This document shows positions 867-24,469 of a stretch of DNA of 44,540 nt, one piece after another (position 1 is the stretch's first letter; each line of letters starts with the position of its first letter). A program made the translations under genes and the position numbers. The DNA comes from Actinopolymorpha alba DSM 45243 (lineage in GTDB: Bacteria > Actinomycetota > Actinomycetes > Propionibacteriales > Actinopolymorphaceae): NCBI RefSeq assembly GCF_000373925.1, contig NZ_KB892761.1:1-44540 (forward strand), in the 5' to 3' direction. Below the pieces are notes generated by a model. It worked only from the letters and a program-made list of their open reading frames with translations. It had not been told where the DNA came from and ran no database searches.

Positions 867-1604
867 ATGAACGTGCTGCGGTGGCGTGAGCAGACCCGGG
901 AACGCCTCAACGAGCTCCTGCCCGAAGCGGTGGTCGTCCTGCCGATCGGCGCGACCGAGCAGCACGGTCCGCACCTCGCGACCGGCACCGACGCGCTGAT
1001 GGCCGAGACCGCGGCCGAACGCGCCGTGGAGCGGGCCGCTGAGGCCGCACCGCGTCCGCTCGTCCTGGCGCCCACGATTCCGGTGGGTGCGTCCGACCAT
1101 CACCTGCCGTTCGGAGGCACGCTGTCGCTGCGTCCCGAGACGCTGCTCGCCGTCCTGGTCGACCTGGCGCGTTCGGTCGCCGACTGCGGTGGGCGCCGGC
1201 TCGTCATCGTCAACGGTCACGGCGGTAACCGCGGGATCTGCTCGGCCGCTGCCGCCGCGGCGTCGGTGCGGTCACCGATCACGGTCGCGTACGCCGACTA
1301 CTGGGACGCCGCGGTCGGGGCTGACCTTGGCGGGACTCCGCTGCCGGGGCACGCGGGCGGGTTCGAGACCTCGCTGGTGCTTGCGGTGGCGCCCGACTGG
1401 GTGAAGGAGCGTGCCGGCCGGTCCGTCGTTCCGGAGATTCCCGCGGTGACCGGGCTCGAGATCCACCGGCAGGCGTCGTGGCACGAGCAGGACGGTTTCA
1501 CCGACGAGCCATCGGAAGCGAGCGGGGAGAAGGGGCAAGCCTGGCTTGACCATCTCGTCGCGGTGCTGGCGGATCGGCTCGTCGACCTGGCCAAGACGCT
1601 GTAG
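867..1604 (+). CDS. Creatininase-family amidohydrolase (copy 1)
   Basis: A 245-residue creatininase-family metallohydrolase (creatinine amidohydrolase fold, usual length about 240-260). ATG 867 follows GAGGAAAGGAAGG; an upstream in-frame extension to 747 lacks family similarity. Candidate metal ligands sit in the right order: E31 and H33 in GATEQHGPHL, D42 in TGTD, H118 in NGHGGN and E167 in GGFETS. The GASDHHLPFGGTLSL segment is the family's substrate-loop region. Known members hydrolyse cyclic amides or formamides (creatinine, FAPy, inosose ring), so the family gives a reaction type, cyclic C-N hydrolysis, but not the substrate. It heads the group with a cysteine hydrolase (15 bases on) and a cupin, and a second divergent copy lies at 8532. 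Confidence 0.85.
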   Translation: MNVLRWREQTRERLNELLPEAVVVLPIGATEQHGPHLATGTDALMAETAAERAVERAAEAAPRPLVLAPTIPVGASDHHLPFGGTLSLRPETLLAVLVDLARSVADCGGRRLVIVNGHGGNRGICSAAAAAASVRSPITVAYADYWDAAVGADLGGTPLPGHAGGFETSLVLAVAPDWVKERAGRSVVPEIPAVTGLEIHRQASWHEQDGFTDEPSEASGEKGQAWLDHLVAVLADRLVDLAKTL

Positions 1605-1619
1605 CGACTTTTTACGCCG

Positions 1620-2417
1620 TTGAAATCGGCGCTTGCCAGCCTGTGGGGGGTGCGCACCCTTGGAGCGAATGAGCGCAATTCCTGGCAGGTGAGCGACCGG
1701 CTGGTGGATCTGCGCCGGCCTACCCGGACGAGCCGCCCAGTGCGGGTTGACACCGAACCCCAAACGCTGGTGGTCGACCTCGCCCGTACCGCTCTCATCG
1801 TCGTCGACATGCAGAACGACTTCTGCTCACCGCATGGTTGGCTGGCCTCGATCGGCGTCGACGTCGAGCCGGCTCGCCGCCCGATCGAGCCGCTGCGCGC
1901 GCTGATCCCGGCGCTGCGGAGCTTGGACGTACCCATCGTCTGGCTCAACTGGGGAAACCGGCCCGACCGCGCGAACCTGCCCCCGAACGTCCTGCACGTC
2001 TACAGCCCCGACGGTCACGCGCCCGGAATCGGCGAGCGGCCGCGCCCCGGCGGCTCGCCCACTCTGCAGGCAGGAAGCTGGTCGGCGGCGGTCGTGGACG
2101 AGCTCACGGTCGAGCCCACCGACATCCGCGTCGACAAGTACCGCATGAGCGGGTTCTTCGACACTGCCCTGGACGGTGTGCTCCGCAACCTCGACGTGAC
2201 GACGCTGCTCTTCGCGGGCGTGAACGTCGACCAGTGCGTGTTCGCCACGCTCACGGACGCGGCCTGTCTCGGCTACGACTGCATCCTTCTGAAGGACTGC
2301 TGCGCCACCACCTCGCCGGCGTACTGCGAGGACGCGACGCACTACAACGTACGCCAGTGTTTCGGGTTCGTGGCTGATTCCAAGGCACTCGCACACGGCA
2401 TCGAGAGTGACCGCTGA
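1620..2417 (+). CDS. Isochorismatase-family cysteine hydrolase (carbamoylsarcosinase/biuret hydrolase/RutB-like)
   Basis: A 265-residue alpha/beta cysteine hydrolase. The catalytic triad is readable: D63 in VVDMQNDFC, K173 in DKYRMSGF and C206 in GVNVDQCVFATL, including the usual cis-peptide strand before the cysteine. The long insert between Asp and Lys, with the WLNWGNRPDR segment, matches the ureidoacrylate/biuret/N-carbamoylsarcosine branch, which cleaves a terminal urea-like C-N bond to ammonia and CO2, rather than true isochorismatases. The start is uncertain: TTG 1620 is the longest frame, with GTG 1650 or 1689 as alternatives; the domain proper begins near residue 28. It lies 15 bases after the creatininase and 25 before the cupin. 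Specificity within the superfamily cannot be decided by eye. Confidence 0.82.
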   Translation: MKSALASLWGVRTLGANERNSWQVSDRLVDLRRPTRTSRPVRVDTEPQTLVVDLARTALIVVDMQNDFCSPHGWLASIGVDVEPARRPIEPLRALIPALRSLDVPIVWLNWGNRPDRANLPPNVLHVYSPDGHAPGIGERPRPGGSPTLQAGSWSAAVVDELTVEPTDIRVDKYRMSGFFDTALDGVLRNLDVTTLLFAGVNVDQCVFATLTDAACLGYDCILLKDCCATTSPAYCEDATHYNVRQCFGFVADSKALAHGIESDR

Positions 2418-2442
2418 TCCCTTGTCTGAAAGGAACCTGCCG

Positions 2443-2844
2443 ATGAAGGTGTACGCACCCGCGGACTTCCGCTGTTACCGCATCTCGCCCGGAGACACCG
2501 TCCGGCTCGCGCTCGTCCACGCGCCGACTCCCGACCACGACGTCACGGTGGTCTTCGAGCTGTGGGACGTCGGCGGCGCCCAGCCCTTCAACAGCCATCC
2601 ACGGTCGACGGAGACGTTCTTCTTCCTCGCGGGCGAGGGTGAGGCGTACTGCGACGACGAGAAGCGGCCGGTCGCGGCCGGCGACTTCCTGGTCCTCGAG
2701 CCGGGCACCAACCACCGCATCGTCAACACCGGCACGGGTCCGATGGCCGCGATCACGACGATGTCACCCGACGACGGCTTCGCCGATCTCATCCTGCGCG
2801 GAGAGCCCGCGGAGCTCACGCCGGCCGACCTTGAGGTGTTTTAA
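2443..2844 (+). CDS. Single-domain cupin protein
   Basis: A 133-residue single-cupin protein. ATG 2443 follows GAAAGGA; a longer in-frame reading from 2407 overlaps the previous gene and lacks a ribosome site. The two cupin motifs are present: motif 1 around FNSHPRSTETFFFLAGEGEAYCDD, in which one metal His is kept and the second is replaced (SHPRSTE), and motif 2 around PGTNHRIVNTG. Such proteins act as small isomerases, dioxygenases or ligand-binding proteins. It is the last gene of the first short group (867-2844) and is followed by an independent promoter, so it may be co-transcribed with the creatininase and cysteine hydrolase. The substrate is unknown. Confidence 0.72.
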   Translation: MKVYAPADFRCYRISPGDTVRLALVHAPTPDHDVTVVFELWDVGGAQPFNSHPRSTETFFFLAGEGEAYCDDEKRPVAAGDFLVLEPGTNHRIVNTGTGPMAAITTMSPDDGFADLILRGEPAELTPADLEVF

Positions 2845-2850
2845 GCGTTC

Positions 2851-2878
2851 TTGACACACAAGTAACAGCGCGGAGACT
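2851..2878 (+). promoter_or_regulatory. Candidate sigma-70-type promoter of the 2951 operon
   Basis: A perfect TTGACA (2851-2856) is followed after 16 bases by GAGACT (2873-2878), which resembles the actinobacterial -10 TANNNT except at the first base. Transcription would start near 2885, ahead of the palindrome at 2903 and the TTG start at 2951. It lies directly after the cupin stop codon, so the large operon can be expressed separately from the first three genes. Confidence 0.45.
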
Positions 2879-2902
2879 GGGCCGACACAGCCGTCCCAGA
2901 AT

Positions 2903-2921
2903 ATGTTGATGCCATCAACAT
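2903..2921. promoter_or_regulatory. Palindromic operator ATGTTGAT-GCC-ATCAACAT
   Basis: Perfect 8-bp inverted arms around a 3-bp centre, AT-rich in an otherwise GC-rich region, lying between the candidate promoter and the ribosome site of the amidohydrolase gene. Spacing and symmetry are those of a dimeric repressor site (GntR, LacI, IclR or XRE type). A repressor here would block transcription just downstream of the start point. The XRE-cupin protein encoded at the end of the same operon (12495) is the nearest candidate to bind it. Confidence 0.55.
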
Positions 2922-2950
2922 TTTGCTCCTTCCTCCGAGGGGGGCGTGCG

Positions 2951-4270
2951 TTGACAGAGACCATTTCTGGAGTCGGCGGCCTGCGGTTGACCGGCGCCAC
3001 ACTTGCGGGTGGCCAGCCCGGGCTGGTGCGGATCGAACGCGGCCTGGTCACGGACGTGGCCGAAACGCCGGCTGCCCTCGAGTGCTCCTCGGCCGGCGCC
3101 GACGGCACGGAGCCCGTGAACCGCAGGGAGCACCTCGATCTCACGGGGTACGTGCTCCTGCCGGCAGCGGCCGAACCCCACGCGCATCTCGACAAGGCCC
3201 TCACCTGGGACGCGGTGGGCTGCGCGCCGGGCGACCTGCGCCATGCCGTCGTCTCCTGGCGGGAATGGTCCCGAAAGCTCTCGCCGGCGAACGTCCGCCA
3301 GCGCGCGCTCCGGGCTCTGGAAGACCTGGTGGCACATGGAGCCACCGCCGTACGCACGCATGTCGACCTCGGACCAACGGCGAGCCGGCTGCCGGTGATT
3401 GAGGCGCTGGTGTCACTCCGCGACGAGGTGGCCGGTGCGGTCTGGGTGCAGCTGGCGGCACTCACCGCTCCGGACACGCCGGAGAGTGTCGTACGCCAGG
3501 CGCTCGCCGCAGGCATCGACCTGGTGGGCGGCGTTCCCCACCTCGCCGACGATCCCACTGCGGAGACCAGGCGGCTGTTCGCGCTGGCCGAACACGCGGG
3601 CGCGGGACTGGACCTCCACATCGACGAGCACCTGGCGCCTGCGCCGCTCACCCTGCTCGAACTCGCTCGGCTGGCACGGGATACTCCGCTGCCGCGCGGT
3701 ATCACGGCCAGCCACTGCGTGAGTCTTGGCATGCTGGCCCCGAGCCGGCGGCAGGAGGTCGTCGAGGCGCTGGCCCAGACCACCATCGGGATCGTCACGT
3801 TGCCCCTCACGAACCTCTACCTGCAGGGGAGGGGATGGTCGAGCAGCCCACCACGGGGGCTGACCGCGGTGCAATCGCTTCTTGACGCCGGGATCCCGGT
3901 CGCGGCCGGAGGCGACAACATCCGCGACCCCTTCAATCCCATGGGCCGCGCCGATCCGCTCGAAACCGCGTCCCTGCTCGTGACCGCCGGCCACCTCGGT
4001 GTGGTCGAGGCGTACGACGCGGTGAGTACGACGGCCCGGCGCGTCCTCGGCCTTGACCCGGCCGGCCCGGTCAAGGGCGCGGCCGCGGATCTCCTTGCGG
4101 TGAAGGCGGAAAGCCTCTCCGAGGCGATCGCGACGGGCACCGAGGACCGGCTGGTGATCCGTGCCGGCCAGGTCATCCGCCGGACCACCGTGACCCGCAG
4201 CGGTCCCGCGCTGTCTGGCGTCAGGTCCGGCCGTCCCGAGGCGACCGAACTCGTCGCCACCTCTGGATAA
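2951..4270 (+). CDS. Cytosine deaminase-like amidohydrolase
   Basis: A 439-residue amidohydrolase-superfamily enzyme. TTG 2951 is chosen because GAGGGGGG precedes it by seven bases; an upstream ATG frame runs through the operator. Six metal/catalytic residues match the CodA pattern in order: H77 and H79 (PHAHLDKALTW), H223 and E226 (LHIDEH), H255 (ASHCVSLG) and D322 (GGDNIRDPF). The DPFNPMGRADPLETASLL stretch is typical of the cytosine deaminase/AtzC branch. Members deaminate or hydrolyse ring amidines: cytosine, creatinine, N-isopropylammelide. The context of creatininases, a carbamoyl-cleaving cysteine hydrolase and an AtzH-amidase fusion suggests it opens or deaminates an N-heterocycle imported by the adjoining ABC transporter. 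The first gene of a roughly 10-kb operon; the exact substrate is unknown. Confidence 0.83.
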   Translation: MTETISGVGGLRLTGATLAGGQPGLVRIERGLVTDVAETPAALECSSAGADGTEPVNRREHLDLTGYVLLPAAAEPHAHLDKALTWDAVGCAPGDLRHAVVSWREWSRKLSPANVRQRALRALEDLVAHGATAVRTHVDLGPTASRLPVIEALVSLRDEVAGAVWVQLAALTAPDTPESVVRQALAAGIDLVGGVPHLADDPTAETRRLFALAEHAGAGLDLHIDEHLAPAPLTLLELARLARDTPLPRGITASHCVSLGMLAPSRRQEVVEALAQTTIGIVTLPLTNLYLQGRGWSSSPPRGLTAVQSLLDAGIPVAAGGDNIRDPFNPMGRADPLETASLLVTAGHLGVVEAYDAVSTTARRVLGLDPAGPVKGAAADLLAVKAESLSEAIATGTEDRLVIRAGQVIRRTTVTRSGPALSGVRSGRPEATELVATSG

Positions 4271-4284
4271 CGAGGAGGATCCCC

Positions 4285-5082
4285 TTGTCCGCAAGCGCAG
4301 AAGCGGTGCCAGCAACAGCCGCCGCTCGCTCCACCTCCCCGTCCGCGTTGCGGTTCGAGGGCGTGAGCAAGCGGTTCAGCACCGGCACGCTGGCCCTGGA
4401 CGCCATCGACCTGACCGTGGACGCGGGCGAGTTCGTCAGTGTCGTCGGGCCTTCGGGCTGTGGCAAGAGCACCTTGCTGCGCCTTGCCAGCGGCCTGAGC
4501 CAGGCAACGGCTGGTGCGGTGGTCACGGGCGACGTGCGGGTGAGTTATGTCTTCCAGGACCCGACGTTGTTGCCCTGGCGTACGGTCCTCGGCAACGTCG
4601 AACTCGTCGGTGAGCTCGCGAAGCTGCCCCGGAGCGAGCGTCGCGAGAAGGCGTTGCGGATCATCAAGCTGGTCGGCCTGGAAGGATTCGAACGTCAGCG
4701 TCCCGGCCAACTGTCCGGCGGCATGCAGATGCGGGTCTCGCTGGCCCGTGCGTTGTTGCTGGATCCGGGGTTGTTCCTCTTCGACGAGCCGTTCGGCGCG
4801 CTCGACGAGATGACGAGGGAGCGGCTGGGAGACGAACTCCAGCAGCTGTTCCACTCCCGGCGGTTCGCTGGGCTGTTCATCACCCACTCGGTCGCGGAGG
4901 CGGTCTTCCTGTCGACCCGCGTGGTGGTCATGTCGGCCCGACCCGGCCAGATCGTTGCCGACGTGGAGATTCCGTTCGACTACCCGCGGTCGACGGAGCT
5001 GCGCTTCACCCCGGAGTTCGCCAAGATGACAGGCGTGGTGTCGGCCGCCCTGCGACGGAAAGGCAAGGGTGAGTTGACATGA
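4285..5082 (+). CDS. ABC transporter ATPase, nitrate/sulfonate/pyrimidine type
   Basis: A 265-residue nucleotide-binding subunit of an SsuB/TauB/ThiZ-type importer. TTG 4285 follows GAGGAGGA. Motifs: Walker A GPSGCGKST, Q-loop FQDPTLLPW (the family's hallmark LLPW), signature LSGGMQMR, Walker B LFLFDEPFGALD and switch His in THS. It couples ATP hydrolysis to the permease encoded next, with which it overlaps by four bases (ATGA), implying translational coupling. It starts 14 bases after the deaminase-like gene. Importers of this family carry sulfonates, nitrate, taurine or pyrimidine precursors such as hydroxymethylpyrimidine; with a deaminase in the operon a heterocyclic substrate is the better guess (inference). 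Confidence 0.9.
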   Translation: MSASAEAVPATAAARSTSPSALRFEGVSKRFSTGTLALDAIDLTVDAGEFVSVVGPSGCGKSTLLRLASGLSQATAGAVVTGDVRVSYVFQDPTLLPWRTVLGNVELVGELAKLPRSERREKALRIIKLVGLEGFERQRPGQLSGGMQMRVSLARALLLDPGLFLFDEPFGALDEMTRERLGDELQQLFHSRRFAGLFITHSVAEAVFLSTRVVVMSARPGQIVADVEIPFDYPRSTELRFTPEFAKMTGVVSAALRRKGKGELT

Positions 5083-5954
5083 GCCTGTCGCTGACCAAGG
5101 CGTTCAGAACGGCGGGGAGCACGCCGGCGAAGGGACCAGGTGTGCTGGCCGGCGCACCGCGGCTGGTCCGGCTCGCGATCCCGCCATTCGTCACGCTCGC
5201 GGTGATCCTCGGCATCTGGCTGACGATCACGTACGTCATCCTCGCGCCGGAGCGGCGGTTCCTCATGCCGCCGCCACACGAGATCGCCAAGGTGGGGTTC
5301 CTCGATCCGGCGAACCGGGCGCAGATGCTAAGCGCCCTGCTGCTCTCGACCCAGGTGGCCATGGTGGGCCTGGTGATCGCCACGGTGATCGGGGTCAGCG
5401 TCGCGGTGGTGATGAGCCAGGCGCGGGCGATCGAGCGTGCGCTCTATCCGTACGCCGTCGTACTGCAGACGATCCCGATCCTCGCGCTGGTTCCGCTGAT
5501 CGGGTTTTGGTTCGAGTTCGGGTTCACGAGTCGGGTGATCGTCTGCGTTCTCATCGCGTTGTTCCCGCTGATCGCCAACACGCTCTTCGGGCTGCAGTCA
5601 GTCGACGCGGCCCACCATGATCTGTTTACACTGCACGGCGCGAGCCGGTGGGAACGCCTTGTCAAGCTGCAGTTTCCGGCCGCGCTTCCGGCACTCTTCA
5701 CCGGTCTCCGGATCGCCGCCGGCCTCTCTGTCATCGGCGCCGTCGTCGGTGACATGTTCTTCATGCAGGGCCAGCCCGGAATCGGAACCCTGCTTGACCT
5801 TTACCGGTCCCGGCTGCAGTCAGAACAACTCTTCGCCGCGATCTTCCTGTCCTCGCTGCTGGGCATCGTCGTCTTCTCCGCGTTCGGGTTGCTGGGTCGG
5901 TTGGTCGTCGGCTCGTGGTCGACGTTCGGCGGCGGCAGCGGCCGGGAGCGCTGA
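5079..5954 (+). CDS. ABC transporter permease, SsuC/ThiX type
   Basis: A 291-residue integral membrane subunit with about six hydrophobic segments (first near residues 28-52). The cytoplasmic coupling loop is visible as HGASRWERLVKLQFPAALPALFTGLRIA, matching the EAA motif of binding-protein-dependent permeases. ATG 5079 overlaps the stop of the ATPase gene. It forms the transmembrane channel of the importer with the ATPase and the lipoprotein encoded 30 bases later. Length and topology are usual for the family; nothing looks damaged. Confidence 0.9.
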   Translation: MSLSLTKAFRTAGSTPAKGPGVLAGAPRLVRLAIPPFVTLAVILGIWLTITYVILAPERRFLMPPPHEIAKVGFLDPANRAQMLSALLLSTQVAMVGLVIATVIGVSVAVVMSQARAIERALYPYAVVLQTIPILALVPLIGFWFEFGFTSRVIVCVLIALFPLIANTLFGLQSVDAAHHDLFTLHGASRWERLVKLQFPAALPALFTGLRIAAGLSVIGAVVGDMFFMQGQPGIGTLLDLYRSRLQSEQLFAAIFLSSLLGIVVFSAFGLLGRLVVGSWSTFGGGSGRER

Positions 5955-5984
5955 GTCTTCCGCTTCTTGGAGGTTGTGACACCA

Positions 5985-7166
5985 GTGAAACTCTCTTCTC
6001 GCACGGCTGGATCCGTGGCAGTCATGATGTCCGCGCTCGCCCTCGCCGCGAGCGCCTGCGGGGGCGACGCGACCACGGAGAACCCACCGGCCAAGGCGGC
6101 CGCGGCCTCGTCCGCTCCGCCGGAGCAGACCCTGGCCGGTGTCTGCCCCGCCACGGTGGTCGCGCAGACCGACTGGAATCCCGAAGCAGAGCACGGCGCT
6201 CTGTACGAACTCGTGGGTCCTGGCTACCAGATCGACGCGGACAAGAAGCGGGTTTCGGGTCCGCTGATGATCGGCGGGAAGGACACCGGGGTCAGGATCG
6301 AGGTACGCACCGGCGGGCCGGCGATCGCCTACCAGACGGTGACCTCGCAGATGTACCTCGACCCGTCGATCACGCTTGGCATGGTGTCGACTGACGGCGC
6401 GATCGGTAACTCCGACAAGCAGCCGGTCGTCGGCGTGGTGGCCCCGCTGCGCAAGAACCCACAGATCCTCATGTGGGACCCGAAGGCACATCCCGACTGG
6501 AACACCATCGCCGACATCGGCAAGAGCGATGCGCGGGTCCTCTACGTCCAGGGTTCGCCCTACGGCGACTACCTCGTGGAGAAGGGGCTGCTGAAGAAGA
6601 GCCAGCTGGACGGGAGTTACAAGGGAACCCCCGCGACCTTCGTCGCCGAGGTCGACAAGATCGCCCAGCAGGGATTCGCGACCGCCGAGCCCTACATCTA
6701 CGAGCACGAGGTCCGTGCGTACGCCCGGCCGGTGAAGTACCAACTGATCGCCGACACGGGTTACGACCTTTATCCGCAGGCCCTTTCGGTGCGGGCGAGC
6801 GCCTTGAAGGAGCTCTCGCCATGCCTGAAGAAGCTGGTGCCGATCATCCAGCAGGCCCAGGTCGACTACATCAGCTCGCCCGATCGCACCAACAAGCTGA
6901 TCGTCGAACTCGTCGAGAAGTACAACAACGGGTGGGCGTACTCCGAAGGAGTGGCGGCCTTCGCTGCAAAGGAGATGCGCACGCTCGCCATTGTTGGCAA
7001 CGAGGACGGCAATACCCTGGGCAACTTCAGCTCCGAGCGGGTTCAGAAATCGTTCGACACCATCGCCCCGCTGTTGAAGAAGTCTGGCAAGAACCCGAAG
7101 GTGGGTCTCAAGCCGACGGAGCTTTACACCAACCAGTTCATCGACTCCACGATCGGACTCAAGTAG
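5985..7166 (+). CDS. ABC transporter substrate-binding lipoprotein, NMT1/ThiY-like
   Basis: A 393-residue exported binding protein. A lipoprotein signal is clear: positively charged start, hydrophobic stretch, then LAASAC with C25 as the lipidated residue, followed by a low-complexity TTENPPAKAAAASS linker. GTG 5985 is preferred since GGAGG lies 11 bases upstream; an in-frame TTG at 5967 overlaps that ribosome site. The body resembles periplasmic-binding-protein-like II (NMT1/SsuA) proteins with many Tyr/Lys/Gly-rich turns. It would capture the substrate outside the membrane and deliver it to the permease at 5079. NMT1-type proteins bind pyrimidines, sulfonates, nitrate or riboflavin-like ligands; the ligand here is unknown. 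Confidence 0.82.
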   Translation: MKLSSRTAGSVAVMMSALALAASACGGDATTENPPAKAAAASSAPPEQTLAGVCPATVVAQTDWNPEAEHGALYELVGPGYQIDADKKRVSGPLMIGGKDTGVRIEVRTGGPAIAYQTVTSQMYLDPSITLGMVSTDGAIGNSDKQPVVGVVAPLRKNPQILMWDPKAHPDWNTIADIGKSDARVLYVQGSPYGDYLVEKGLLKKSQLDGSYKGTPATFVAEVDKIAQQGFATAEPYIYEHEVRAYARPVKYQLIADTGYDLYPQALSVRASALKELSPCLKKLVPIIQQAQVDYISSPDRTNKLIVELVEKYNNGWAYSEGVAAFAAKEMRTLAIVGNEDGNTLGNFSSERVQKSFDTIAPLLKKSGKNPKVGLKPTELYTNQFIDSTIGLK

Positions 7167-7212
7167 GCGCCACTCAGTAGGCACCTGTCGACCACCGAAA
7201 CGGGAGGGGTAC

Positions 7213-8496
7213 GTGAGCGTGGTGGAACTCGCCAGTGAGTTGGAGGACCTGCTGGGATCGGTCGGCGTGAGTGTCGACGAGCGGGTCCGGCGGACGGCAT
7301 CAACCGACTGGGCGCACATGTCGCCGGTCCTGTCGGCGAAACTTCCGGCGGGCCTGGCGGATGTCGTCGCGTTCCCGCGTACGCCGGAGGAACTCGCGCG
7401 GGTCCTCCAGGCTGCCTACCGGCGTCGGGTACCCGTGACGCCACGGGGCAAAGGCACCGGTAACTACGGCCAGGCCATCCCGCTGGCCGACGGGCTCGTC
7501 ATCGACCTGACCCGCTGCCGGCGGATCCTCGAGATCGGTGACGGTTACATGAAGGCCGAGGCGGGTGCGACGTTCGTGGTGATGGAAGCGGCCGCACACC
7601 GCGCCGGCCAGGACGTGTGTGTCTTTCCGTCGACTGTCGGGAGCACCGTCGGCGGTTTCATCTCCGGCGGCAGCGGGGGTACGGGCTCGGTGGAGCATGG
7701 CCGCACCTGGGACGGCAACATCCTGGCGCTGGACGTCGTGCCGTGCACCGAGGACGCGGATCTCCTTGCCCGCAAGGGATTCGAGGAAACGCTGCCGTTC
7801 TGTCACGCGTTCGGCACCAGCGGGATCGTCGCGACCGCGACCGTACGCCTGGCACCGGCCCGCCAGTGGACCGCGCTCTTCACCAGTTTCGAGCACTTCG
7901 CGGACGCGGTGGAGGCGGGCCGGCAGATCATGGCGCTCGATCCGCCACCGCGCCTGCTGTCGATCGACGACCCCGGCCTCGTCGAGCACTACGGCGATCC
8001 AGCCGCGATGCCGTTAGGCAAGGTGAGCTTGCGGGCGATCATCGACACCTCGGTGGTGTCAGACGCCGGCGCGGTAGTCACGGCCGCTGGCGGGACGGTG
8101 GAGGAGGTACGCCCGAAGGGCGCCGGGCTGCTCACCTCCCTGTCGTTCAACCACAGCACCTACCGCCTGCGCAAGGCGCGCCCGGAGTTCACTCACCTAC
8201 AGGTCGGGGGAGCGGGCCTAGTGGAGCGGACGCGTGAGGCACGCGAGGTGCTTCCCGAAACGCTCCTGCATCTGGACGGCGTTCAGGGACCCAGCTACGC
8301 GGGGATGCTGATGTGTAGGTACGACGGCGAGGCGGCGCTGCTTGCCGGCATTCGTGGCCTGGAAGGGCTTGGTGTCACGGTGAGCAGCCCGCATACCTGG
8401 GAGCTCCACCATGACCGGGTGGGGCTGATCCGATCGACCGCGGCGCGACTCGATCCGGCCGGGCTCCTCAATCCCGGCAAGCTTCCCGCGGCGTAA
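7213..8496 (+). CDS. FAD-binding oxidoreductase (PCMH/GlcD-type)
   Basis: A 427-residue flavoprotein of the vanillyl-alcohol-oxidase/PCMH fold. GTG 7213 follows GGGAGGGG. The FAD-binding half (about residues 45-215) shows PRGKGTGNYGQ, a pyrophosphate-contacting FPSTVGSTVGGFISGGSGG stretch and FGTSGIVATATVRLAP; the C-terminus ends in LDPAGLLNPGKLP, the usual end of FAD-linked oxidase C domains. No iron-sulfur domain is attached. Members oxidise hydroxy acids, alcohols or amines with O2 or a quinone. In this operon it may oxidise an intermediate before or after ring hydrolysis, but the reaction cannot be named. It is separated from the transporter by 46 bases and from the second creatininase by 35. 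Confidence 0.85.
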   Translation: MSVVELASELEDLLGSVGVSVDERVRRTASTDWAHMSPVLSAKLPAGLADVVAFPRTPEELARVLQAAYRRRVPVTPRGKGTGNYGQAIPLADGLVIDLTRCRRILEIGDGYMKAEAGATFVVMEAAAHRAGQDVCVFPSTVGSTVGGFISGGSGGTGSVEHGRTWDGNILALDVVPCTEDADLLARKGFEETLPFCHAFGTSGIVATATVRLAPARQWTALFTSFEHFADAVEAGRQIMALDPPPRLLSIDDPGLVEHYGDPAAMPLGKVSLRAIIDTSVVSDAGAVVTAAGGTVEEVRPKGAGLLTSLSFNHSTYRLRKARPEFTHLQVGGAGLVERTREAREVLPETLLHLDGVQGPSYAGMLMCRYDGEAALLAGIRGLEGLGVTVSSPHTWELHHDRVGLIRSTAARLDPAGLLNPGKLPAA

Positions 8497-8531
8497 GGGC
8501 GGCGGACTCACCCAAGGACTTGAGGAGGCAG

Positions 8532-9335
8532 ATGAGCGCCACTGTTTCGCAGCCCGAGCGTCGCCTCGGGATGCTCACCACTGACGAGATCGCCGCGATC
8601 AGCAAGGCGGACGCGCTGGTCCTACAGCCCATCGGCGCCACCGAACAGCACGGGCCGCACCTGCCCTGCCTCACGGACGCCCTGATCGCCCAGGCCGCGG
8701 CCGAGCGGGCGGTCGCGCAACTTCCGGTTGACGCGAACGTCTGGTTGCTGCCGCCGTTGTGGTACGGCAAGTCCACCGAGCATCTGGGGCGACCCGGCAC
8801 GGTGAGTATGTCGGCGCAGACGCTCGTCTCGGTGTGCCTCGACCTTGGCCGCTCGCTCGCCGCGTCAGGCTTTCGCAAGCTGGCGTTCGTCAACGGGCAT
8901 GGTGGCCAGCCGGCACTGCTGGACATGGTCGCCCGCGACATCCGGTACGACACCGGCCTGCAGGTGTTCCCGCTGATGGTGTCGCGGCTCGGACTTCCCG
9001 AGGACGTGGTCTCCTCCGACGCGGGGTTCGGGATCCACGCCGGCGAAGTGGAGACGTCGGTGATGATGGCGCTGGAGCCGTCGACGGTGCGTTCCGACCG
9101 GCTGCCCGTGGACGGCGCCGACGTCGCGAAGCTGTTCGCCGACTGCGAGCACCTCACCCTCGAAGGCGCGATTCCGACGGCCTGGTTGACCGATGACCTC
9201 TCCGAGAGTGGCGTGATCGGTGACGCGCGCGGAGCGAACGCGGAGCTGGGGGAGCGGGTCCTGCGGCACTGGTCGGCACGGCTCGCGGTGGCACTCACCG
9301 AGATGGCGGCGTTCGAGTTTCCCCGTACCCGATGA
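8532..9335 (+). CDS. Creatininase-family amidohydrolase (copy 2)
   Basis: A 267-residue second member of the creatininase family. ATG 8532 follows TGAGGAGG. Candidate metal ligands are kept: E38 and H40 in GATEQHGPHL, D49, H123 in NGHGGQ and E174 in AGEVETS. The substrate-loop segment reads KSTEHLGRPGT instead of the SDHHLPFGGT of copy 1, and the two proteins are clearly diverged, so they probably act on different intermediates rather than being a recent duplication. The stop overlaps the ATG of the next gene (ATGA), so it is translationally coupled to the AtzH-amidase fusion. The substrate is unknown; cyclic amide hydrolysis is the expected chemistry. Confidence 0.84.
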   Translation: MSATVSQPERRLGMLTTDEIAAISKADALVLQPIGATEQHGPHLPCLTDALIAQAAAERAVAQLPVDANVWLLPPLWYGKSTEHLGRPGTVSMSAQTLVSVCLDLGRSLAASGFRKLAFVNGHGGQPALLDMVARDIRYDTGLQVFPLMVSRLGLPEDVVSSDAGFGIHAGEVETSVMMALEPSTVRSDRLPVDGADVAKLFADCEHLTLEGAIPTAWLTDDLSESGVIGDARGANAELGERVLRHWSARLAVALTEMAAFEFPRTR

Positions 9336-10954
9336 GGGCGAACGAAGGTGAGGTGGCGGTGAAGGGCCTCGGCACCGAACCCGCTGGACTGATAGAGGCG
9401 TTCTGGTCGTACGAGAACGCGCTGGCGACGAACGACCTCGACGCTTTGGACCGCTGGTTCCTCGACGCACCGACCACGCTGCGCGCCGATGCGGTCGGCG
9501 TTCTGGTGGGGCAGCAGGCGATCAGTGACTTCCGCCGGGAACGCGGCGGCGCGCCGTTCCGGATCGCCGAGCGGGTTCACGTCCAGGTCTGCGGGGACGG
9601 CTGCGCGGTGGTCATCGCCGAAACCCGGCGTCCCGACGGGGCCCGGGGGCTACAGAGCCAGACCTGGGTCGCGACGCCAGACGGGTGGCGGATCGCCGCC
9701 GCCAGCGTGGCGGGGGTAGGTCACAACGGCGTTGGGGTCCGCCCGGCAGAGCAGGAGATCGATACGAGCGCGGTCTGGCGGGAGGTCGGTACGCCACTGG
9801 TGACGGGGGTGCCTGAAGGGCCACTCGCGGGACGCGGTGTGGCTGTCAAGGACCTCTTTGCGGTGGCGGGTCACCGGGTGGGCGCCGGCAATCCGGCCTG
9901 GCTCGCGGAGGCCGTGCCCGAACCCCGGCATTCCTGGGCGGTGCAAGCCCTGGTTGACGCGGGCGCCGACCTCACCGGGATCGCCCAGACCGACGAGTTG
10001 GCGTACAGCCTCTCGGGCACCAACGTGCACTACGGCACCCCACCCAACCCGGCGGCGCCCGGCCGGATCACCGGCGGCTCGTCGAGCGGTCCGGCCTCGG
10101 CCGTGGCGCTCGGACTGGCCGACATCGGTCTCGGCACCGACACCGCCGGCTCGATCCGGGTACCCGCGTCGTACTCCGGCCTCTACGGGCTCCGCACCAC
10201 CCACGCGGTGGTGCCGGTGGAGGGCGTCGTGCCGCTGGCACCGTCGTTCGACACGGTCGGCCTGCTCACGCGGGACGCCGCGACCCTGGCCGCCGCCGGC
10301 GACGTGCTGCTACCGCCGGGTGCCGCCGGACCCCTCCGCCGGTTGGTGGTGCCGGAGGACCTGCTGGCGTTCGCCGAACCAGAGGTGCGTACGTCGTTCG
10401 AGGCGGCCTGCCGGGCCCTCGCCGGTCTCCCCGGTGTGCGGATCGAGCGCGCGGAAGCCCTCTGCGCTGGGCGGCTGGAGGAGTGGTTCGCGGCGTTCCG
10501 GACCGTGCAGGCGACGCAGGCCTGGGAAGTCCACGGACGATGGATCACCCGCCATCCCGACGCGCTCGGTGGCGGTATCGCCGCGAGGTTCGCGATGGGC
10601 GCCCGGGTCACACCCGACGAGCGCGAATCGGCCGAGCGCGTGCTCACCGACGCTCGCGATGCCGTCCGTCAAGAGTTCGTTGACGGGATGGCGTTCGTCC
10701 TCCCGGCGACCAGCGGGGTGGCCCCACCACCGGACCTCGATCCTGCCGTCAAGGACGCCTTGCGGGGCGCGACGCTCCGGCTCACCTGCCTGGCCTCCCT
10801 TGCCGGGCTCCCGGTGGTGGTCCTTCCCCGGTTGCGAGTCCGCGGCCTGCCCGCCGGGCTCGCGGTGATCGGCGCGCCCGGCACCGACCGGGCATTGCTG
10901 CGCTTCGCCGTGGCCGCCGAGAGTGGCCCGGCGCCGTTCCCACCGCAGACCTGA
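9332..10954 (+). CDS. AtzH-like domain fused to amidase-signature hydrolase
   Basis: A 540-residue two-domain protein. Residues about 15-130 form a SnoaL/NTF2-like domain of the AtzH/HpxZ (DUF3225) type: LIEAFWSYENALATNDLDALDRWF, a GQQAISDFRRERG turn and a C-terminal strand QTWVATPDGWRIAAASVA. Residues about 150-535 are an amidase-signature domain with Lys173 (VAVKDLF), a GGSSSG cis-serine loop (S250-S252) and nucleophile S274 in GTDTAGSIRVP. In cyanurate catabolism AtzE (amidase) hydrolyses 1-carboxybiuret and AtzH acts on the product; here the two functions appear in one chain. ATG 9332 overlaps the previous stop; GTG 9359 has a better ribosome site (GAAGGTGAGG) and may be the true start. 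Operon context supports ureide catabolism. Confidence 0.85.
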   Translation: MRANEGEVAVKGLGTEPAGLIEAFWSYENALATNDLDALDRWFLDAPTTLRADAVGVLVGQQAISDFRRERGGAPFRIAERVHVQVCGDGCAVVIAETRRPDGARGLQSQTWVATPDGWRIAAASVAGVGHNGVGVRPAEQEIDTSAVWREVGTPLVTGVPEGPLAGRGVAVKDLFAVAGHRVGAGNPAWLAEAVPEPRHSWAVQALVDAGADLTGIAQTDELAYSLSGTNVHYGTPPNPAAPGRITGGSSSGPASAVALGLADIGLGTDTAGSIRVPASYSGLYGLRTTHAVVPVEGVVPLAPSFDTVGLLTRDAATLAAAGDVLLPPGAAGPLRRLVVPEDLLAFAEPEVRTSFEAACRALAGLPGVRIERAEALCAGRLEEWFAAFRTVQATQAWEVHGRWITRHPDALGGGIAARFAMGARVTPDERESAERVLTDARDAVRQEFVDGMAFVLPATSGVAPPPDLDPAVKDALRGATLRLTCLASLAGLPVVVLPRLRVRGLPAGLAVIGAPGTDRALLRFAVAAESGPAPFPPQT

Positions 10955-10962
10955 GGAGTGGC

Positions 10963-12483
10963 ATGACCACGACGGATCTCCCCGCTGGTGGGGCGCCCTC
11001 GCCGGGCGTCCTCACCGGGCTCGACGTGACCCACCGGCCGGGTGTGCCGATGCGGACCCGCGACGGCGTGACGCTGGTCGCCGACCTGTGGCATCCCGAG
11101 GGCGCCGGGCCGTGGCCGGCACTGCTGGTCCGTACGCCATATGGCCGTACGCTCGCGTCCGCCATCACCTCGCCCCATCCGAGCGTCCTCGCCCGGCGCG
11201 GCTATCTCGTCGTCACCCAGGACGTCCGCGGCCGCGGTGACTCGGCGGGGGAGTTCGTGCCGTTCGCTCACGAGGCGAACGACGGTGAGGACGCGATCGG
11301 CTGGGTGGCGGGTCTCCCCGAGTGTGACGGCCGGGTCGGCACGTACGGCTTCAGCTACCAGGGCTGCGCCCAACTGCTGGCCGCCGCCAACAAACCCCGA
11401 GCGCTCCGGGCGATCGCGCCCGCGATGTGCAGCGCGGATCCGGCGGAGGGGTTCCTCTTTCATGCCGGGATCCTGCGGCTCGGCTACGCGGTGAGCTGGG
11501 GATCGCAGCTGTCCGGCGCTGACGGGTTCCTCGGTCCGGCGGCGGCCGGCGTACTCGCTGCCCGGATCGCGGCCGAGGACGTTCCTGACTGGGCGTACTG
11601 GCAGGACTGGACGGAAGGCCGCTGCGGCCCGGTCGCCGACCTCAGGGCGGTCGAGGTCCCGGCCCTGGTCACGATCGGGTGGTACGACACCTTCGCCGGC
11701 GGCGGCGCCCGCGACCTCGCTGCCCTCAGCGACAACGGCTACCTGCTCGGCGCCCCGTGGGCCCACATGCCCTGGTCGCCCGACTCCGACGTGGCGTTCG
11801 AGACGCACCTGGCGTTCTTCGACCAGCACGTGGCCGGACGGCCCGGGCCCCGGCTGCCGCGGGCCCGCTCGCTGGCGGTGGACGGTGGCTGGCAGGACCT
11901 TCCCGCCTGGCCGCCGGCGCCCACCCGGCAGCGGTTCTACCTCACCAGCGACGGGAACGCCGCGACCCGCTGGGGCGACGGCTGCCTCGCACCGCAGCCG
12001 CGGACCGGTGCGCCGGTGGTGGCGACGTACGAACCCGCGGTCCCGGTGCCGTCGCTCGGCGGCGCTGCCAACGGGAACGTCGGGCGGGTGGGTCGGGTGG
12101 ATCAGGGCCCGGTCCAGGACCGCACGGACGTACTGGTCTACACCAGCGAGCCGCTCACCGAGCCGCTGGAGATCGCCGGAACGCCGACGGCCCACCTCGC
12201 CCTCAGCAGCACCGCCCCGACGCACGACGGCTGCGTGACGCTGTGCTCGGTCGCGCCTGACGGCTCGTGCGGGAACCTGGCGTTCGGCGCCGCCCGTGGC
12301 ACCGGCGACCTCGAGGTCGAACTCGCACCCGTCCACGCCATCGTGCCGGCCGGCCACCGGTTGCGGGTCGCGGTGGCACCGAGCGCCTTCCCGGAGCTCT
12401 CCCCGAACCGCAGCAGCGGCTGGCACCAGGTGGTCCGGGTGTTACGGTCCGGGTCGTGGGTCGAGCTGCCGGTACGCACCTGA
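10963..12483 (+). CDS. CocE/NonD-family serine hydrolase
   Basis: A 506-residue alpha/beta hydrolase of the X-Pro dipeptidyl-peptidase/cocaine-esterase group. ATG 10963 follows GAGGAG, eight bases after the previous gene. The triad is visible: nucleophile S131 in GFSYQG, D242 in GWYDTF and H268 in APWAHMPW; DVRGRGDSAGEF is the conserved oxyanion-side strand. The C-terminal half, from about residue 310, is the beta-sandwich of the PepX C domain ending in the usual GHRLRVAVAPSAFP segment. There is no signal peptide, so it acts in the cytosol, hydrolysing an ester or amide with a bulky acyl part. In this operon it may remove a side chain from the imported compound (inference). Confidence 0.86.
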   Translation: MTTTDLPAGGAPSPGVLTGLDVTHRPGVPMRTRDGVTLVADLWHPEGAGPWPALLVRTPYGRTLASAITSPHPSVLARRGYLVVTQDVRGRGDSAGEFVPFAHEANDGEDAIGWVAGLPECDGRVGTYGFSYQGCAQLLAAANKPRALRAIAPAMCSADPAEGFLFHAGILRLGYAVSWGSQLSGADGFLGPAAAGVLAARIAAEDVPDWAYWQDWTEGRCGPVADLRAVEVPALVTIGWYDTFAGGGARDLAALSDNGYLLGAPWAHMPWSPDSDVAFETHLAFFDQHVAGRPGPRLPRARSLAVDGGWQDLPAWPPAPTRQRFYLTSDGNAATRWGDGCLAPQPRTGAPVVATYEPAVPVPSLGGAANGNVGRVGRVDQGPVQDRTDVLVYTSEPLTEPLEIAGTPTAHLALSSTAPTHDGCVTLCSVAPDGSCGNLAFGAARGTGDLEVELAPVHAIVPAGHRLRVAVAPSAFPELSPNRSSGWHQVVRVLRSGSWVELPVRT

Positions 12484-12494
12484 ACAGCCATGCC

Positions 12495-13058
12495 GTGGAG
12501 GCTTCCGCCGAGGATGGCGTACGCCGGCTCGGCGCGGCGATCCGGCAGCTGCGCCGGCAGCGCCAACTGACCCTGGTGCAGCTGGCGGGACGCGCGGGGC
12601 TGTCCCACCCGTTCCTGAGCCAGGTCGAACGCGGGCTGGCCCGGCCGAGCATGTCGTCCCTCCACCGGATCGCGCAGGCGCTCGGCACCACCCAGCAGGC
12701 GCTCATGGCGGCCGAACCCGGAGCGCCGGCCGTCTCGCCGGTCAGTCTGGTCCGCGCCGGCGACGGCGAGCCGCTCGACCACGGCGACGGGCACGCTCGG
12801 AGCCTCGTGCGCGGGCGCCGGGCGATGTATCCCGTGGAGTTCACCGGGGCCGCACTGACGTACGACGAGTACTACACGCACGCCGGCGACGAACTCGTCC
12901 ACGTGGTCGAGGGCGAGATCGAGGTGGACCTCGACGACCAGGGCCGCCACCTGCTCAGGCCCGGTGACACGCTCTACTACGCCGGCGGCACACCGCATCG
13001 CTGGCGTGCGGTCAACGCCGGACCGTCCCGCCTGCTCGTCGTTCAGGACGGCCGTTAG
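12495..13058 (+). CDS. XRE-family regulator with C-terminal cupin
   Basis: A 187-residue helix-turn-helix/cupin regulator. The HTH covers about residues 8-65 (GAAIRQLRRQRQLTLVQLAGRAGLS, then SQVERGLARPS); the cupin_2 domain covers about 110-185 with THAGDELVHVVEGEIEV and GDTLYYAGGTPHRW. Regulators of this build sense a small metabolite in the cupin and control their own catabolic operon. GTG 12495 is used; GTG 12456 inside the previous gene is in frame and equally lacks a strong ribosome site, so translation is probably coupled to the hydrolase gene. As last gene of the operon it would be made with the enzymes; the palindrome at 2903 is a plausible binding site. Confidence 0.82.
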   Translation: MEASAEDGVRRLGAAIRQLRRQRQLTLVQLAGRAGLSHPFLSQVERGLARPSMSSLHRIAQALGTTQQALMAAEPGAPAVSPVSLVRAGDGEPLDHGDGHARSLVRGRRAMYPVEFTGAALTYDEYYTHAGDELVHVVEGEIEVDLDDQGRHLLRPGDTLYYAGGTPHRWRAVNAGPSRLLVVQDGR

Positions 13059-13069: not shown

Positions 13070-13116
13070 GATCATGAAGGATTTTCGTCGCTATTTGACC
13101 AAAATCCTTCATGATC
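13070..13116. terminator. Long inverted repeat (16-bp arms), probable terminator
   Basis: GATCATGAAGGATTTT (13070-13085) and its exact reverse complement (13101-13116) flank a 15-base loop, starting eleven bases after the XRE stop codon. The arms are AT-rich, unlike the surroundings, and the first includes the palindrome TGATCA. Position suggests the end of the 2951-13058 operon. It may also be one copy of a dispersed genomic palindrome; another TGATCA-containing inverted repeat closes the DHDPS gene at 24336. Confidence 0.6.
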
Positions 13117-13929: not shown

Positions 13930-16311
13930 GTGAACGCACGCATCGCCGCCACGGATACGGCGCTCCCCGAGTCGGAGCTCCTGCGGGTGGATGCCTACTG
14001 GCGGGCTGCCAACTACCTGTCGGTCGGGCAAATCTACCTGCTCGACAACCCGCTGCTTCGGGAACCGCTGCGGCCCGAGCACCTCAAGCCGAGGCTGCTC
14101 GGACACTGGGGCACGACGCCGGGCCTCAACCTCATCTACGCGCACCTGAACCGTCTGATCCGGGCCCGTGACATCTCGGCGATCTTCGTCACCGGGCCCG
14201 GCCACGGCGGTCCGGCCGTCGTAGCGAACGCCTATCTCGAGGGCACCTACAGCGAGATCTATCCGCATGTGACCCGGAACGAGACGGGCCTGCGACGGTT
14301 GTTCCGGCAGTTCTCCTTCCCGGGCGGGATCCCGAGCCACGCCGCGGCTGAGACACCGGGTTCCATCAACGAGGGTGGCGAACTCGGGTACTCCCTGGTG
14401 CACGCGTACGGCGCGGTCTTCGACAACCCCGACCTGCTGGCCTGTTGCGTGATCGGCGACGGTGAGGCGGAGACCGGACCACTGGCCGCCAGCTGGCACT
14501 CCAACAAGTTCCTCAACCCCGTACGCGACGGCGCGGTGCTCCCGATCCTGCACCTCAACGGGTACAAGATCGCCAACCCGACAGTGCTGGCGCGGATCCC
14601 CGAGCCGGAGCTGATGAGCCTGCTGGAGGGCTACGGTCACCTGCCGTACTTCGTGGCCGGCGAGAATCCGGAGCTGGTCCACCGCCAGCTCGCCGCCGCT
14701 CTTTACCGGGCGTACGACGACATCGCCGCCATCCAGCGCGCCGCTCGCGAGGGAGGTCACGTCACCCGGTCGCGGTGGCCGATGATCGTCCTACGGACGC
14801 CAAAAGGTTGGACCGGTCCGCGCACGGTGGACGGCGTCCAGGTCGAGGGGACGTTCCGGTCCCACCAGGTGCCGCTCGCGGAGGTACGCACCAACCCGGC
14901 CCATCTGGCCGAGCTGCGGGACTGGCTTCTGAGTTACCGGCCGGAGGAGCTCTTCGACGCGGAGGGGCGGTTGCGGCAGGACCTCGCCGAGCTGCCGCCG
15001 AAGGGCGAGCATCGGATGAGCGCCAACCCGCACGCGAACGGCGGGTTGCTGTTGAGCGGCCTGGAGCTGCCCGACTTCCGGGCGTACGGCGCGGTAGTGC
15101 CCTCGCCAGGTGGGACCTCCAGCGAGCCGACGCGGGTGCTCGGCACCTGGCTGCGCGACGTCATACGGGACAACCCCACGTCGTTCCGGCTCTTCGGGCC
15201 GGACGAGACGGCATCCAACCGCCTGTCCGCGGTCTTCGAGGCGACTGACCGGACCTGGGTGGCCGAGCGGTTGCCGACCGACGACCATCTCGCTCCAGAC
15301 GGCCGGGTGATGGAGGTGCTGTCGGAGCACCTGTGCCAGGGCTGGCTGGAGGGGTATCTGCTCACCGGACGGCACGGGCTCTTCAACTGCTACGAGGCGT
15401 TCATCCACATCGTCGACTCGATGTTCAACCAGCACGCGAAATGGCTGAAGGTCACCCGCGAGATCCCCTGGCGGCGTCCGATCGCGTCCCTCAACTACCT
15501 GCTCTCCTCCCACGTCTGGCGGCAGGACCACAACGGTTTCTCCCACCAGGATCCGGGCTTCCTCGACGTGGTGGTCAACAAGAAGGCCGAACTCATCAGG
15601 GTCTACCTGCCGCCCGACACCAACACCCTCCTGTCGACCATGGACCACTGCCTGCGCAGCAGGGACTACATCAACGTCGTCGTGGCGGGCAAGAACCCCG
15701 CGCCGAACTGGTTGACGATGGAGGAGGCGATCGACCACTGCACCCGCGGCATCGGCATCTGGGACTGGGCCAGCAACGACGAGGGCGGCGAACCCGACGT
15801 CGTGCTCGGCTGCGCCGGTGACGTGCCGACCCTCGAAACGCTCGCCGCGGTCGACCTGATCCGCGAGTATCTGCCCGAACTCAAGGTCCGCGTCGTCAAC
15901 GTCGTCGACCTGATGCGCCTGCAACCGGACACCGACCACCCGCACGGCTTGTCCGACCGCGAGTTCGACGCGTTGTTCACCACGGACAAGCAGGTGATCT
16001 TCGCGTTCCACGGGTACCCGCCGCTGATCCACCGGCTGACGTACCGCCGGACCAACCACGCCAACATCCACGTCCGCGGTTACAAGGAGGAGGGCACCAC
16101 CACGACGCCGTTCGACATGGTGATGCTCAACGACCTTGACCGCTTCCACCTCGTCATGGACGTCATCGAACGCGTGCCAGGTCTTGCCGTCCGCGCGGCC
16201 GCCCTGCGCCAGCGGATGATGGACGAACGCCTGGCGGCCCGGCGGCACACCCGCGAGTACGGTGAGGACGCGCCGAACATCCGCGAGTGGACCTGGCCGG
16301 GGACGGCCTGA
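13930..16311 (+). CDS. xfp: Phosphoketolase
   Basis: A 793-residue thiamine-diphosphate enzyme that splits xylulose-5-phosphate (or fructose-6-phosphate) with phosphate into acetyl phosphate and glyceraldehyde-3-phosphate (or erythrose-4-phosphate). GTG 13930 follows GGGGAGG. The three domains are complete: N-terminal XFP_N (about 1-365) with [28 protein letters not shown] and the TDP motif [19 protein letters not shown]; central domain (about 370-580) with [11 protein letters not shown] and [17 protein letters not shown]; and C-terminal domain with VNVVDLMRL and [10 protein letters not shown]. Length is usual (about 790-830). The stop overlaps the acetate kinase ATG by one base, so acetyl phosphate is turned directly to acetate and ATP. 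Xylulose- versus fructose-phosphate preference cannot be read. Confidence 0.96.
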
Positions 16312-19600: not shown

Positions 19601-19601
19601 C

Positions 19602-20366
19602 GTGATCGACTTCCACACCCACACACCGGCTTGGAAGAGCGCGACCTGGCTTGCGGGCGCGACGTTCGGTGCGCGGGAGTTCGTGGCGTTCATGGATTCG
19701 GCTGGGATCGACGCGGCGGTCGTGCTGAGTCACGACGGCCTCTTCGATCCCACGCCGGAGGCGAACGACGAGGTGGCCGCCTTCGTGGCGGAGTATCCCG
19801 ACCGGATGGTGGCGTTCGGCACGGTGAGCCCCCGGCAGAGCACGGCGGTGGCGGAGGTCGAACGCTGTTTCGCCGGGTTGGGCATGCGCGGGTTGAAGCT
19901 CCATCCATGGCTGCAGGGATTCTCGCTGCACGAGCGATCGCTCGACCCGATCTGCGAGGTCGTCGCCGGGGCGGGCGGGATCCTGCTGAGCCACGACGGG
20001 ACGCCGCCGTACTCCACGCCGTTGCAGATCGCGGCCCTCGCCCGCCGGCATCCGCGGTTGCCGGTGGTCCTGGGGCACGGTGGCCTGCACGACTGCTGGC
20101 GGGAGGCGCTGGCCGCCACCGTCGAGACGCCGAACCTCTACCTGTGCATCTGCGGCACCCCGCCCTACGCCGCCCGCAGGATCCTTGCCGAGGCGCCGCC
20201 TGGCAAGGTCATGTTCGGGACCGACGCGGGTCTGTCCGACAAGGCCAGCCAGGACTACGCGGTGGCGCGGGTGCGGGAGATCGACGGCTGGGGCATCACC
20301 CCGGCGCAGAAGCACTCGATGCTCGTCGAGGCCCCGAAGGCGCTGCTGTCGGGTTGGCTCTCGTGA
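19602..20366 (+). CDS. Amidohydrolase_2-type metal-dependent hydrolase (first of three)
   Basis: A 254-residue TIM-barrel protein of the ACMSD/LigI-like amidohydrolase_2 group. GTG 19602 follows AAGGAG. Metal-site elements are present: HTH near the N-terminus (H5, H7), LKLHPWLQGF, SHDGTPP, LGHGGLHD and the final Asp in FGTDAG. Members are decarboxylases, lactonases or hydrolases. The TPP-PLQIAALARRHP segment is closely repeated in the third paralog at 22413, so the two are related copies. GTGA overlap with the enolase-superfamily gene suggests coupled translation. The particular reaction is unknown; lactone hydrolysis or decarboxylation of a product from the dehydrogenase is possible. Confidence 0.83.
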   Translation: MIDFHTHTPAWKSATWLAGATFGAREFVAFMDSAGIDAAVVLSHDGLFDPTPEANDEVAAFVAEYPDRMVAFGTVSPRQSTAVAEVERCFAGLGMRGLKLHPWLQGFSLHERSLDPICEVVAGAGGILLSHDGTPPYSTPLQIAALARRHPRLPVVLGHGGLHDCWREALAATVETPNLYLCICGTPPYAARRILAEAPPGKVMFGTDAGLSDKASQDYAVARVREIDGWGITPAQKHSMLVEAPKALLSGWLS

Positions 20367-21469: not shown

Positions 21470-21522
21470 GCCCTGGCAGCGTGATTCCCCTTACCTGGTA
21501 GGAGAAAGGACGCCGGTCCCTG

Positions 21523-24413: not shown

Positions 24414-24469
24414 TCCGCCAACTCCAGAAGCCCGTCCCCCGGGACAACCCCTGGATCAACCCGCCGGTG

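Follow-up and report, generated by a model that had tools for sequence, protein, structure and literature searches.

The locus described here lies in a stretch of 44,540 nucleotides (nt) of contig NZ_KB892761.1 of Actinopolymorpha alba DSM 45243, hereafter called the window, in which a gene block at positions 867–13058 appears to encode uptake and stepwise degradation of a nitrogen-containing ring compound. Gene identities were assigned from matches to Pfam and NCBIfam profiles and agreed, as did the gene coordinates, with those given in an earlier note on this DNA. The genes and sequence elements of the block are as follows:

867–1604, + strand: creatininase-like protein 1 (MftE/creatininase superfamily; PF02633, 2.3e-58); metal-site pattern retained, Gly at the position of the creatininase Glu
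1689–2417, + strand: cysteine hydrolase, RutB/BiuH-like, Asp-Lys-Cys (PF00857, 3.7e-39); start codon uncertain
2443–2844, + strand: small cupin (PF07883, 1.5e-15)
2903–2921, no strand: operator-like palindrome ATGTTGA-N5-TCAACAT, 30 nt 5' of the CodA-like start at 2951
2951–4270, + strand: CodA-like metal-dependent deaminase, candidate pterin deaminase (PF07969; profile match to PDB 1k6w, 1.8e-64)
4285–5082, + strand: ATP-binding cassette (ABC) importer, ATPase (PF00005)
5079–5954, + strand: ABC importer, permease (PF00528)
5985–7166, + strand: substrate-binding lipoprotein without a catalogued family (no Pfam or NCBIfam match)
7213–8496, + strand: flavin adenine dinucleotide (FAD) enzyme, FAD_binding_4, homologue of the 6v42 flavin oxygenase (1.6e-77, full length)
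8520–9335, + strand: creatininase-like protein 2, core member (PF02633, 5e-70); start may be ATG 8532
9332–10954, + strand: AtzH-like domain and amidase in one fused protein (PF11533, 3.8e-24; PF01425, 5e-49)
10963–12483, + strand: CocE/NonD family hydrolase (TIGR00976, 314 bits against a cut-off of 66)
12495–13058, + strand: XRE-cupin regulator (HTH_31 and Cupin_2)
13070–13116, no strand: 20-nt inverted repeat 3' of the last gene, possible transcription end

From position 2951 to 13058, genes are separated by 8–46 nt or overlap by 4 nt, in line with the spacing reported in the earlier note; the gaps upstream of 2951 measure 84, 25 and 106 nt. The palindrome at 2903–2921 and the inverted repeat at 13070–13116 flank the operon on both sides. 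The position of the palindrome just before the deaminase gene, together with its conservation in relatives, suggests that 2951–13058 is a single regulated operon. The start of the CodA-like gene was taken as 2951 because the homologous part of related proteins begins near that position; an alternative in-frame ATG at 2903 is overlapped by the palindrome. The cysteine hydrolase, a member of the isochorismatase family, and the XRE-cupin protein probably start at GTG 1689 and GTG 12495, respectively.

Conservation of the block was analyzed in the best 80 actinobacterial loci from a genome scan with the FAD protein, which do not represent all existing loci. Six genes, encoding the CodA-like deaminase, the ABC ATPase, the permease, the lipoprotein, the FAD enzyme, and the second creatininase-like protein, form a core that is conserved as a unit. 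This core was complete in 63 of the 80 loci (57/64 among those with 8.5 kb of sequence on both sides), was encoded on one strand in 56, and followed the gene order of the window in 53. Individual core genes were found in 74 (lipoprotein), 72 (ATPase), and 71 loci (permease, CodA-like deaminase, and creatininase-like protein), and the XRE-cupin regulator in 56. The remaining genes are rarer. The fused AtzH-amidase and the small cupin each occurred in 9/80 loci and the isochorismatase in 8/80, while the CocE hydrolase (1/80) and creatininase-like protein 1, for which no separate orthologue was called (0/80), are nearly private to the A. alba genome. The sets closest to that of the window, found in five Streptomyces loci (L028–L030, L032, and L048), combine the core with the cupin, AtzH-amidase, isochorismatase, and XRE-cupin genes. 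General conservation of gene order was rejected as the cause of co-location, because the PPOX, phosphoketolase, and acetate kinase genes that flank the block occurred near the core in none of the 80 loci. These results indicate that the catabolic operon is real and conserved, with its hydrolase satellite more loosely attached. The earlier note had described an even block of twelve genes that should stay together in other genomes; this holds for the core and not for the satellite genes.

Of 391 genomes in an order-level scan, 10, including that of A. alba itself, encode homologues of the FAD protein with E-values of 1e-30 or below, and none of the five congeners in the order-level table does; the distribution of the cluster is therefore patchy. 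Eight of the nine other loci from the same order hold all six core genes within 20 kb, in one case (L018) divided into two divergent units. The ninth (L019) retains relatives of the FAD, creatininase, amidase, isochorismatase, cupin, and CocE genes without deaminase or importer.

The best clue to the substrate comes from the FAD enzyme, which the earlier note had listed but given little weight. Among solved structures, 6v42 was the sole full-length match to its profile (1.6e-77, positions 7–422), followed by a sequence with an E-value of 5e-25 and partial coverage. A structure predicted from a 44-sequence alignment (predicted local distance difference test, pLDDT, 91.8; a single-sequence model with pLDDT 34 was discarded) likewise retrieved 6v42 at rank 1 in Foldseek (9.7e-37, TM 0.89 by query length). 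The Foldseek matches that followed, D-lactate dehydrogenases and alkyl-DHAP synthases, were in keeping with this fold. The title of the 6v42 entry reads 'Crystal structure of the flavin oxygenase with cofactor bound involved in folate catabolism'. The motif R-G-x-G-T-G-N-Y-G-Q and residues H314, H353, and H394 were present in 44/44 sequences (the window protein and those of 43 of the 80 loci) and likewise in 6v42. Of three GlcD-like paralogues in the A. alba genome, two carry other letters at N-Y-G-Q and the third gave no alignment line. The 6v42 sequence is 66% identical to proteins encoded on Rhizobium plasmids, and the one such region that was read carries the same type of cluster. The window enzyme thus resembles the 6v42/6v43 flavin oxygenase in full-length homology, fold, motif, conserved histidines, and the cluster type of a close relative of the latter. 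It differs in belonging to an actinobacterial branch, at 29% identity, and in being encoded in a block without RidA or NAD(P)H-dependent oxidoreductase genes. In a tree of 48 FAD proteins, the window sequence was placed near those of Allorhizocola and Streptomyces; the fork of the window sequence itself was weakly supported (95/63).

The CodA-like protein carries all six metal ligands (H77, H79, H223, E226, H255, and D322), as the earlier note had stated, and these were identical in 28/28 sequences (the window protein and 27 of 71 available relatives). Since many other deaminases share this site, it lends weak support to a pterin deaminase. In all 28 sequences, Asn 323 follows the metal-binding Asp at the position where cytosine deaminase has a second Asp, which we take to be that of the D313–D314 pair of the Escherichia coli enzyme, with the role assigned to it there. 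This replacement disfavours cytosine as the substrate, and the best cytosine deaminase model scored 210 bits against a cut-off of 403. The CodA-like protein is a candidate pterin deaminase. In the available part of the report on Variovorax sp. F1, its pterin deaminase is described as a proven folate-degrading enzyme that deaminates folate and pteroate and is 37% identical to Arad3529 of Agrobacterium radiobacter; its cloning was aided by a conserved 'endoribonuclease' gene that lies downstream in V. paradoxus (PMC9513972). Both enzymes are, by description, deaminases of cyclic amidines and, like the proteobacterial clusters discussed below, are accompanied by a RidA-type (endoribonuclease) gene. 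They differ from the present case in that, in the same part of that report, two enzymes and no cluster are described, and later breakdown is left open (PMC9513972). A primer search in 112 loci for kinship to a characterised pterin deaminase gave no match.

Both creatininase-like proteins retain the E, H, D, H, E metal-site pattern of PF02633, which was present in 26/26 sequences (the two from the window and 24 of 70 relatives). All 26 also contain the family motif NGHGG with H127, G128, and G129, where Pseudomonas creatininase has NGHYEN. The Glu of NGHYEN, which we take to be the catalytic E122, is Gln in another solved creatininase chain. Creatinine is disfavoured as the substrate because this Glu is replaced by Gly, and the creatininase model TIGR04448 gave 83 and 99 bits for the two proteins against a cut-off of 235.

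For the palindrome at 2903, the expected number at up to 2 mismatches was 0.05, and the 8-Mb genome contains no second exact copy. With up to 2 mismatches, the A. alba genome as a whole contains 12 sites, compared with 3 for a reversed control pattern. The core of the palindrome, TGTTG-N7-CAACA, gave 52 matches in 48 of the 80 loci, whereas three first-order resamplings gave a mean of 0.33. Of these matches, 45 are located no more than 460 nt upstream of the CodA-like match. The other seven comprise four upstream of the ABC ATPase, two upstream of the small cupin, and one, in Microbacterium flavum (L074), that is unclear. In L069 and L097, and also in L020, a locus outside the 80, an operator-like site occurs 64–81 nt before the small-cupin match. 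The L074 palindrome, at 6987, lies about 440 nt 5' of an MTHFR-like frame, a hint that this relative of a folate enzyme may belong to the regulon. Two imperfect copies were found in Streptomyces locus L028 (0.10 expected) and none, at up to 3 mismatches, in Rhodococcus locus L041. Among the 71 loci with a CodA-like gene, the XRE-cupin gene was present in 47 of 48 with the palindrome and in 8 of 23 without it (Fisher 7e-9, which is not a true probability because the loci are related and some are shortened). This association is consistent with action of the XRE-cupin protein through the palindrome at 2903–2921.

Diverged versions of the cluster occur in Proteobacteria. All six gene kinds were found in six plasmid loci, from Rhizobium (L023 and L107), Alloyangia, Roseateles, a Comamonadaceae strain, and Klebsiella. 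Identity to the window proteins ranges from about 21% (lipoprotein, which scores low) to 46% (ATPase). A RidA family gene was present in all seven proteobacterial FAD loci that were read, and an NAD(P)H-dependent or VanB-type reductase gene in five of them. The region beside the Klebsiella cluster (L111, 2076–5505) encodes another amidohydrolase and another binding protein, as well as a 2-oxoglutarate-Fe(II) oxygenase.

For the ATPase and permease, taurine, nitrate, and sulfonate systems were among the best NCBIfam matches, all below cut-offs; this importer group includes pyrimidine importers. The kinship of these two subunits backs the SsuABC/ThiXYZ-type importer proposed in the earlier note. 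The binding protein family matched NMT1 faintly in 4 of 38 aligned members (best 0.006), with no match for the window lipoprotein itself. This lipoprotein family is common beside the operon (74/80 loci), yet has no clear Pfam or NCBIfam model.

Among the satellite enzymes, the Asp, Lys, Cys triad of the cysteine hydrolase, also noted earlier, is readable in the sequence. Its best NCBIfam models were RutB (5e-38, 131 of 378 bits) and BiuH (118 of 370 bits), both below cut-off, and it matched PDB 8bkd, RutB, at 1.4e-31. The proposed logic of the block resembles that of the Rut pathway (RutA, RutB, RutC), in which flavin-dependent ring oxygenation is followed by a cysteine amidohydrolase and a Rid-family step, RutB being the best model of the isochorismatase. 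The block differs in that the isochorismatase remains under the RutB cut-off and the FAD enzyme matches FAD_binding_4 rather than a RutA-type fold. The AtzH-amidase scored 174 of 461 bits with AtzE and 75 of 135 bits with HpxZ. As in the cyanurate proteins AtzE/AtzH and the oxalurate protein HpxZ, an AtzH-like domain occurs together with an amidase-signature domain, but in the window both are in one fused protein and both cut-offs are missed.

Neighbouring genes of 86 loci were clustered by similarity and identified from cluster representatives. Amidohydrolases of the 8-oxoguanine-deaminase type were present in 62 of these loci, 54 of them in one tight group whose L033 member matches the PDB entries of TrzN, 8-oxoguanine deaminase, and 2paj, which we take to be an isoxanthopterin deaminase. 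Other neighbours were ferredoxin-type reductases (53), PdxH-like proteins (40), allantoinases (18), XdhC (16), and uricase (15); MTHFR-like proteins occurred near the core in 23 loci, with weak scores (66 bits against a cut-off of 453). The A. alba genome gave only weak matches to the 8-oxoguanine-deaminase-like protein (1.4e-5 and 2e-4) and encodes xanthine-dehydrogenase-type domains on three other contigs. These neighbours support a purine or a pteridine setting but do not discriminate between the two.

Taken together, the conserved core and the shared operator-like site support the proposal in the earlier note that the block serves import of, and stepwise attack on, one nitrogen heterocycle. 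On balance, the block is somewhat more probably than otherwise an inducible operon for uptake and degradation of a pteridine. The likeliest compound would be a product of folate breakdown, for example a 6-substituted pterin or lumazine. In such a pathway, the lipoprotein and ABC importer would take up the pteridine and the CodA-like metal enzyme would remove the ring amino group, converting pterin to lumazine. Next, the FAD enzyme could oxygenate the ring, which a xanthine-dehydrogenase-type enzyme encoded elsewhere in the genome might first hydroxylate. The cyclic amide activated in this way would be opened by creatininase-fold enzymes, and ammonia and small acids might then be freed from the opened fragments by the RutB/BiuH-like, AtzH-amidase, and CocE hydrolases. 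The XRE-cupin protein would sense an intermediate and work via the palindrome.

Among substrate classes, a pteridine has the best support, and its main rival is a purine-like ring. With lower probability, the operon might degrade an 8-oxopurine, a relative of urate, or a purine with methyl groups or other modifications, with a pteridine-type FAD enzyme recruited for the fused-ring purine product. The allantoinase, XdhC, uricase, and tightly grouped 8-oxoguanine-deaminase-like neighbours fit this idea, as does an OHCU decarboxylase-HIU hydrolase protein in L040. However, the core occurs without such neighbours in Streptomyces, Kribbella, and the window, the A. alba genome lacks a good match to the 8-oxoguanine-deaminase-like protein, and 6v42 is titled for folate. 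Less probable still is a vitamin other than folate, for which the same chemistry would act on lumichrome, another flavin breakdown product, or the pyrimidine of thiamin. The faint NMT1/THI5-like similarity of the binding protein family and the taurine/nitrate/sulfonate kind of importer point in this direction; the title of 6v42 does not, and Pfam and NCBIfam revealed no gene for flavin or thiamin degradation in the block. The substrates named in the earlier note (creatinine, hydantoin, triazine, barbiturate, or pyrimidine) were suggested by families named for such compounds, including creatininase, AtzH/AtzE, RutB/BiuH, and CodA/AtzC. Scores for creatininase, cytosine deaminase, RutB, BiuH, and AtzE fall far under the curated thresholds, and the creatininase Glu and the second Asp of cytosine deaminase are both replaced; these substrates, too, are now improbable. 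A search of the A. alba genome for AtzD/barbiturase gave no match, although a control search likewise gave none.

Several observations weigh against degradation of a pteridine by a conserved operon. The link to folate comes from the depositors' title of 6v42, to which the window enzyme is 29% identical, and the likeness to pterin deaminases derives from the descriptions of Arad3529 and the Variovorax enzyme rather than from sequence. The presence of uricase and allantoinase in the same neighbourhoods would fit a purine-like ring. With the lipoprotein profile, neither a PDB entry at E 0.01 nor a clear Pfam family was matched, so this protein gives no clue to its ligand. A core gene is missing in 17 of the 80 loci, of which 10 are accounted for by contig ends and 7 are not, and the palindrome was not found in 32 of the 80 loci or in the 7 proteobacterial loci tested; it was also not found in 5 of 6 further loci tested outside these two sets. 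Unlike five of the seven proteobacterial loci, the window lacks an NAD(P)H-dependent or VanB-type reductase gene adjoining the FAD gene. An Agrobacterium locus (L024) lacks the deaminase. In an Aminobacter locus with a related deaminase, the 19 kb read contained neither an FAD nor a creatininase relative.

The block is directly preceded by a gene for a PNPOx-type (PPOX) flavoprotein (275–727); that this is the flavin partner of the FAD enzyme is only a guess. Phosphoketolase (XFP) and acetate kinase genes lie at 13930–17429, about 0.9 kb past the block. Further downstream, a catabolic-looking set at 18596–28191 encodes a MocA-type oxidoreductase, a mandelate racemase-like enzyme, an amidohydrolase 2, a DHDPS-like protein, and a family-5 solute-binding protein, and two long + strand open frames without Pfam match are located at 22423–23253 and 24467–25816.

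The bacterial genes for breakdown of the pteridine ring, which is found in folate, are still largely unknown. In the available part of the Variovorax report, environmental folate breakdown is described as not fully understood, and further bacterial decomposition of pteroic and deaminopteroic acid is posed as a question (PMC9513972). No paper on the present cluster was found in searches of an open-access library. It is possible, as a tentative proposal, that the cluster represents the missing pathway by which bacteria open the pteridine ring of folates, comprising an importer, a deaminase, a flavin oxygenase, a creatininase-fold ring hydrolase, and an XRE-cupin protein with a palindromic operator, in Actinomycetota and, in diverged form, in Pseudomonadota. 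Were the substrate another ring, the cluster would still be a conserved catabolic unit without a described function. If it is a pteridine, the cluster would supply candidates for the import, deamination, oxygenation, and ring-opening genes of many bacteria from soil and plants, the palindrome would be a handle for finding further members, and many annotations as cytosine deaminase, creatininase family protein, or FAD-binding oxidoreductase in such clusters would be corrected.

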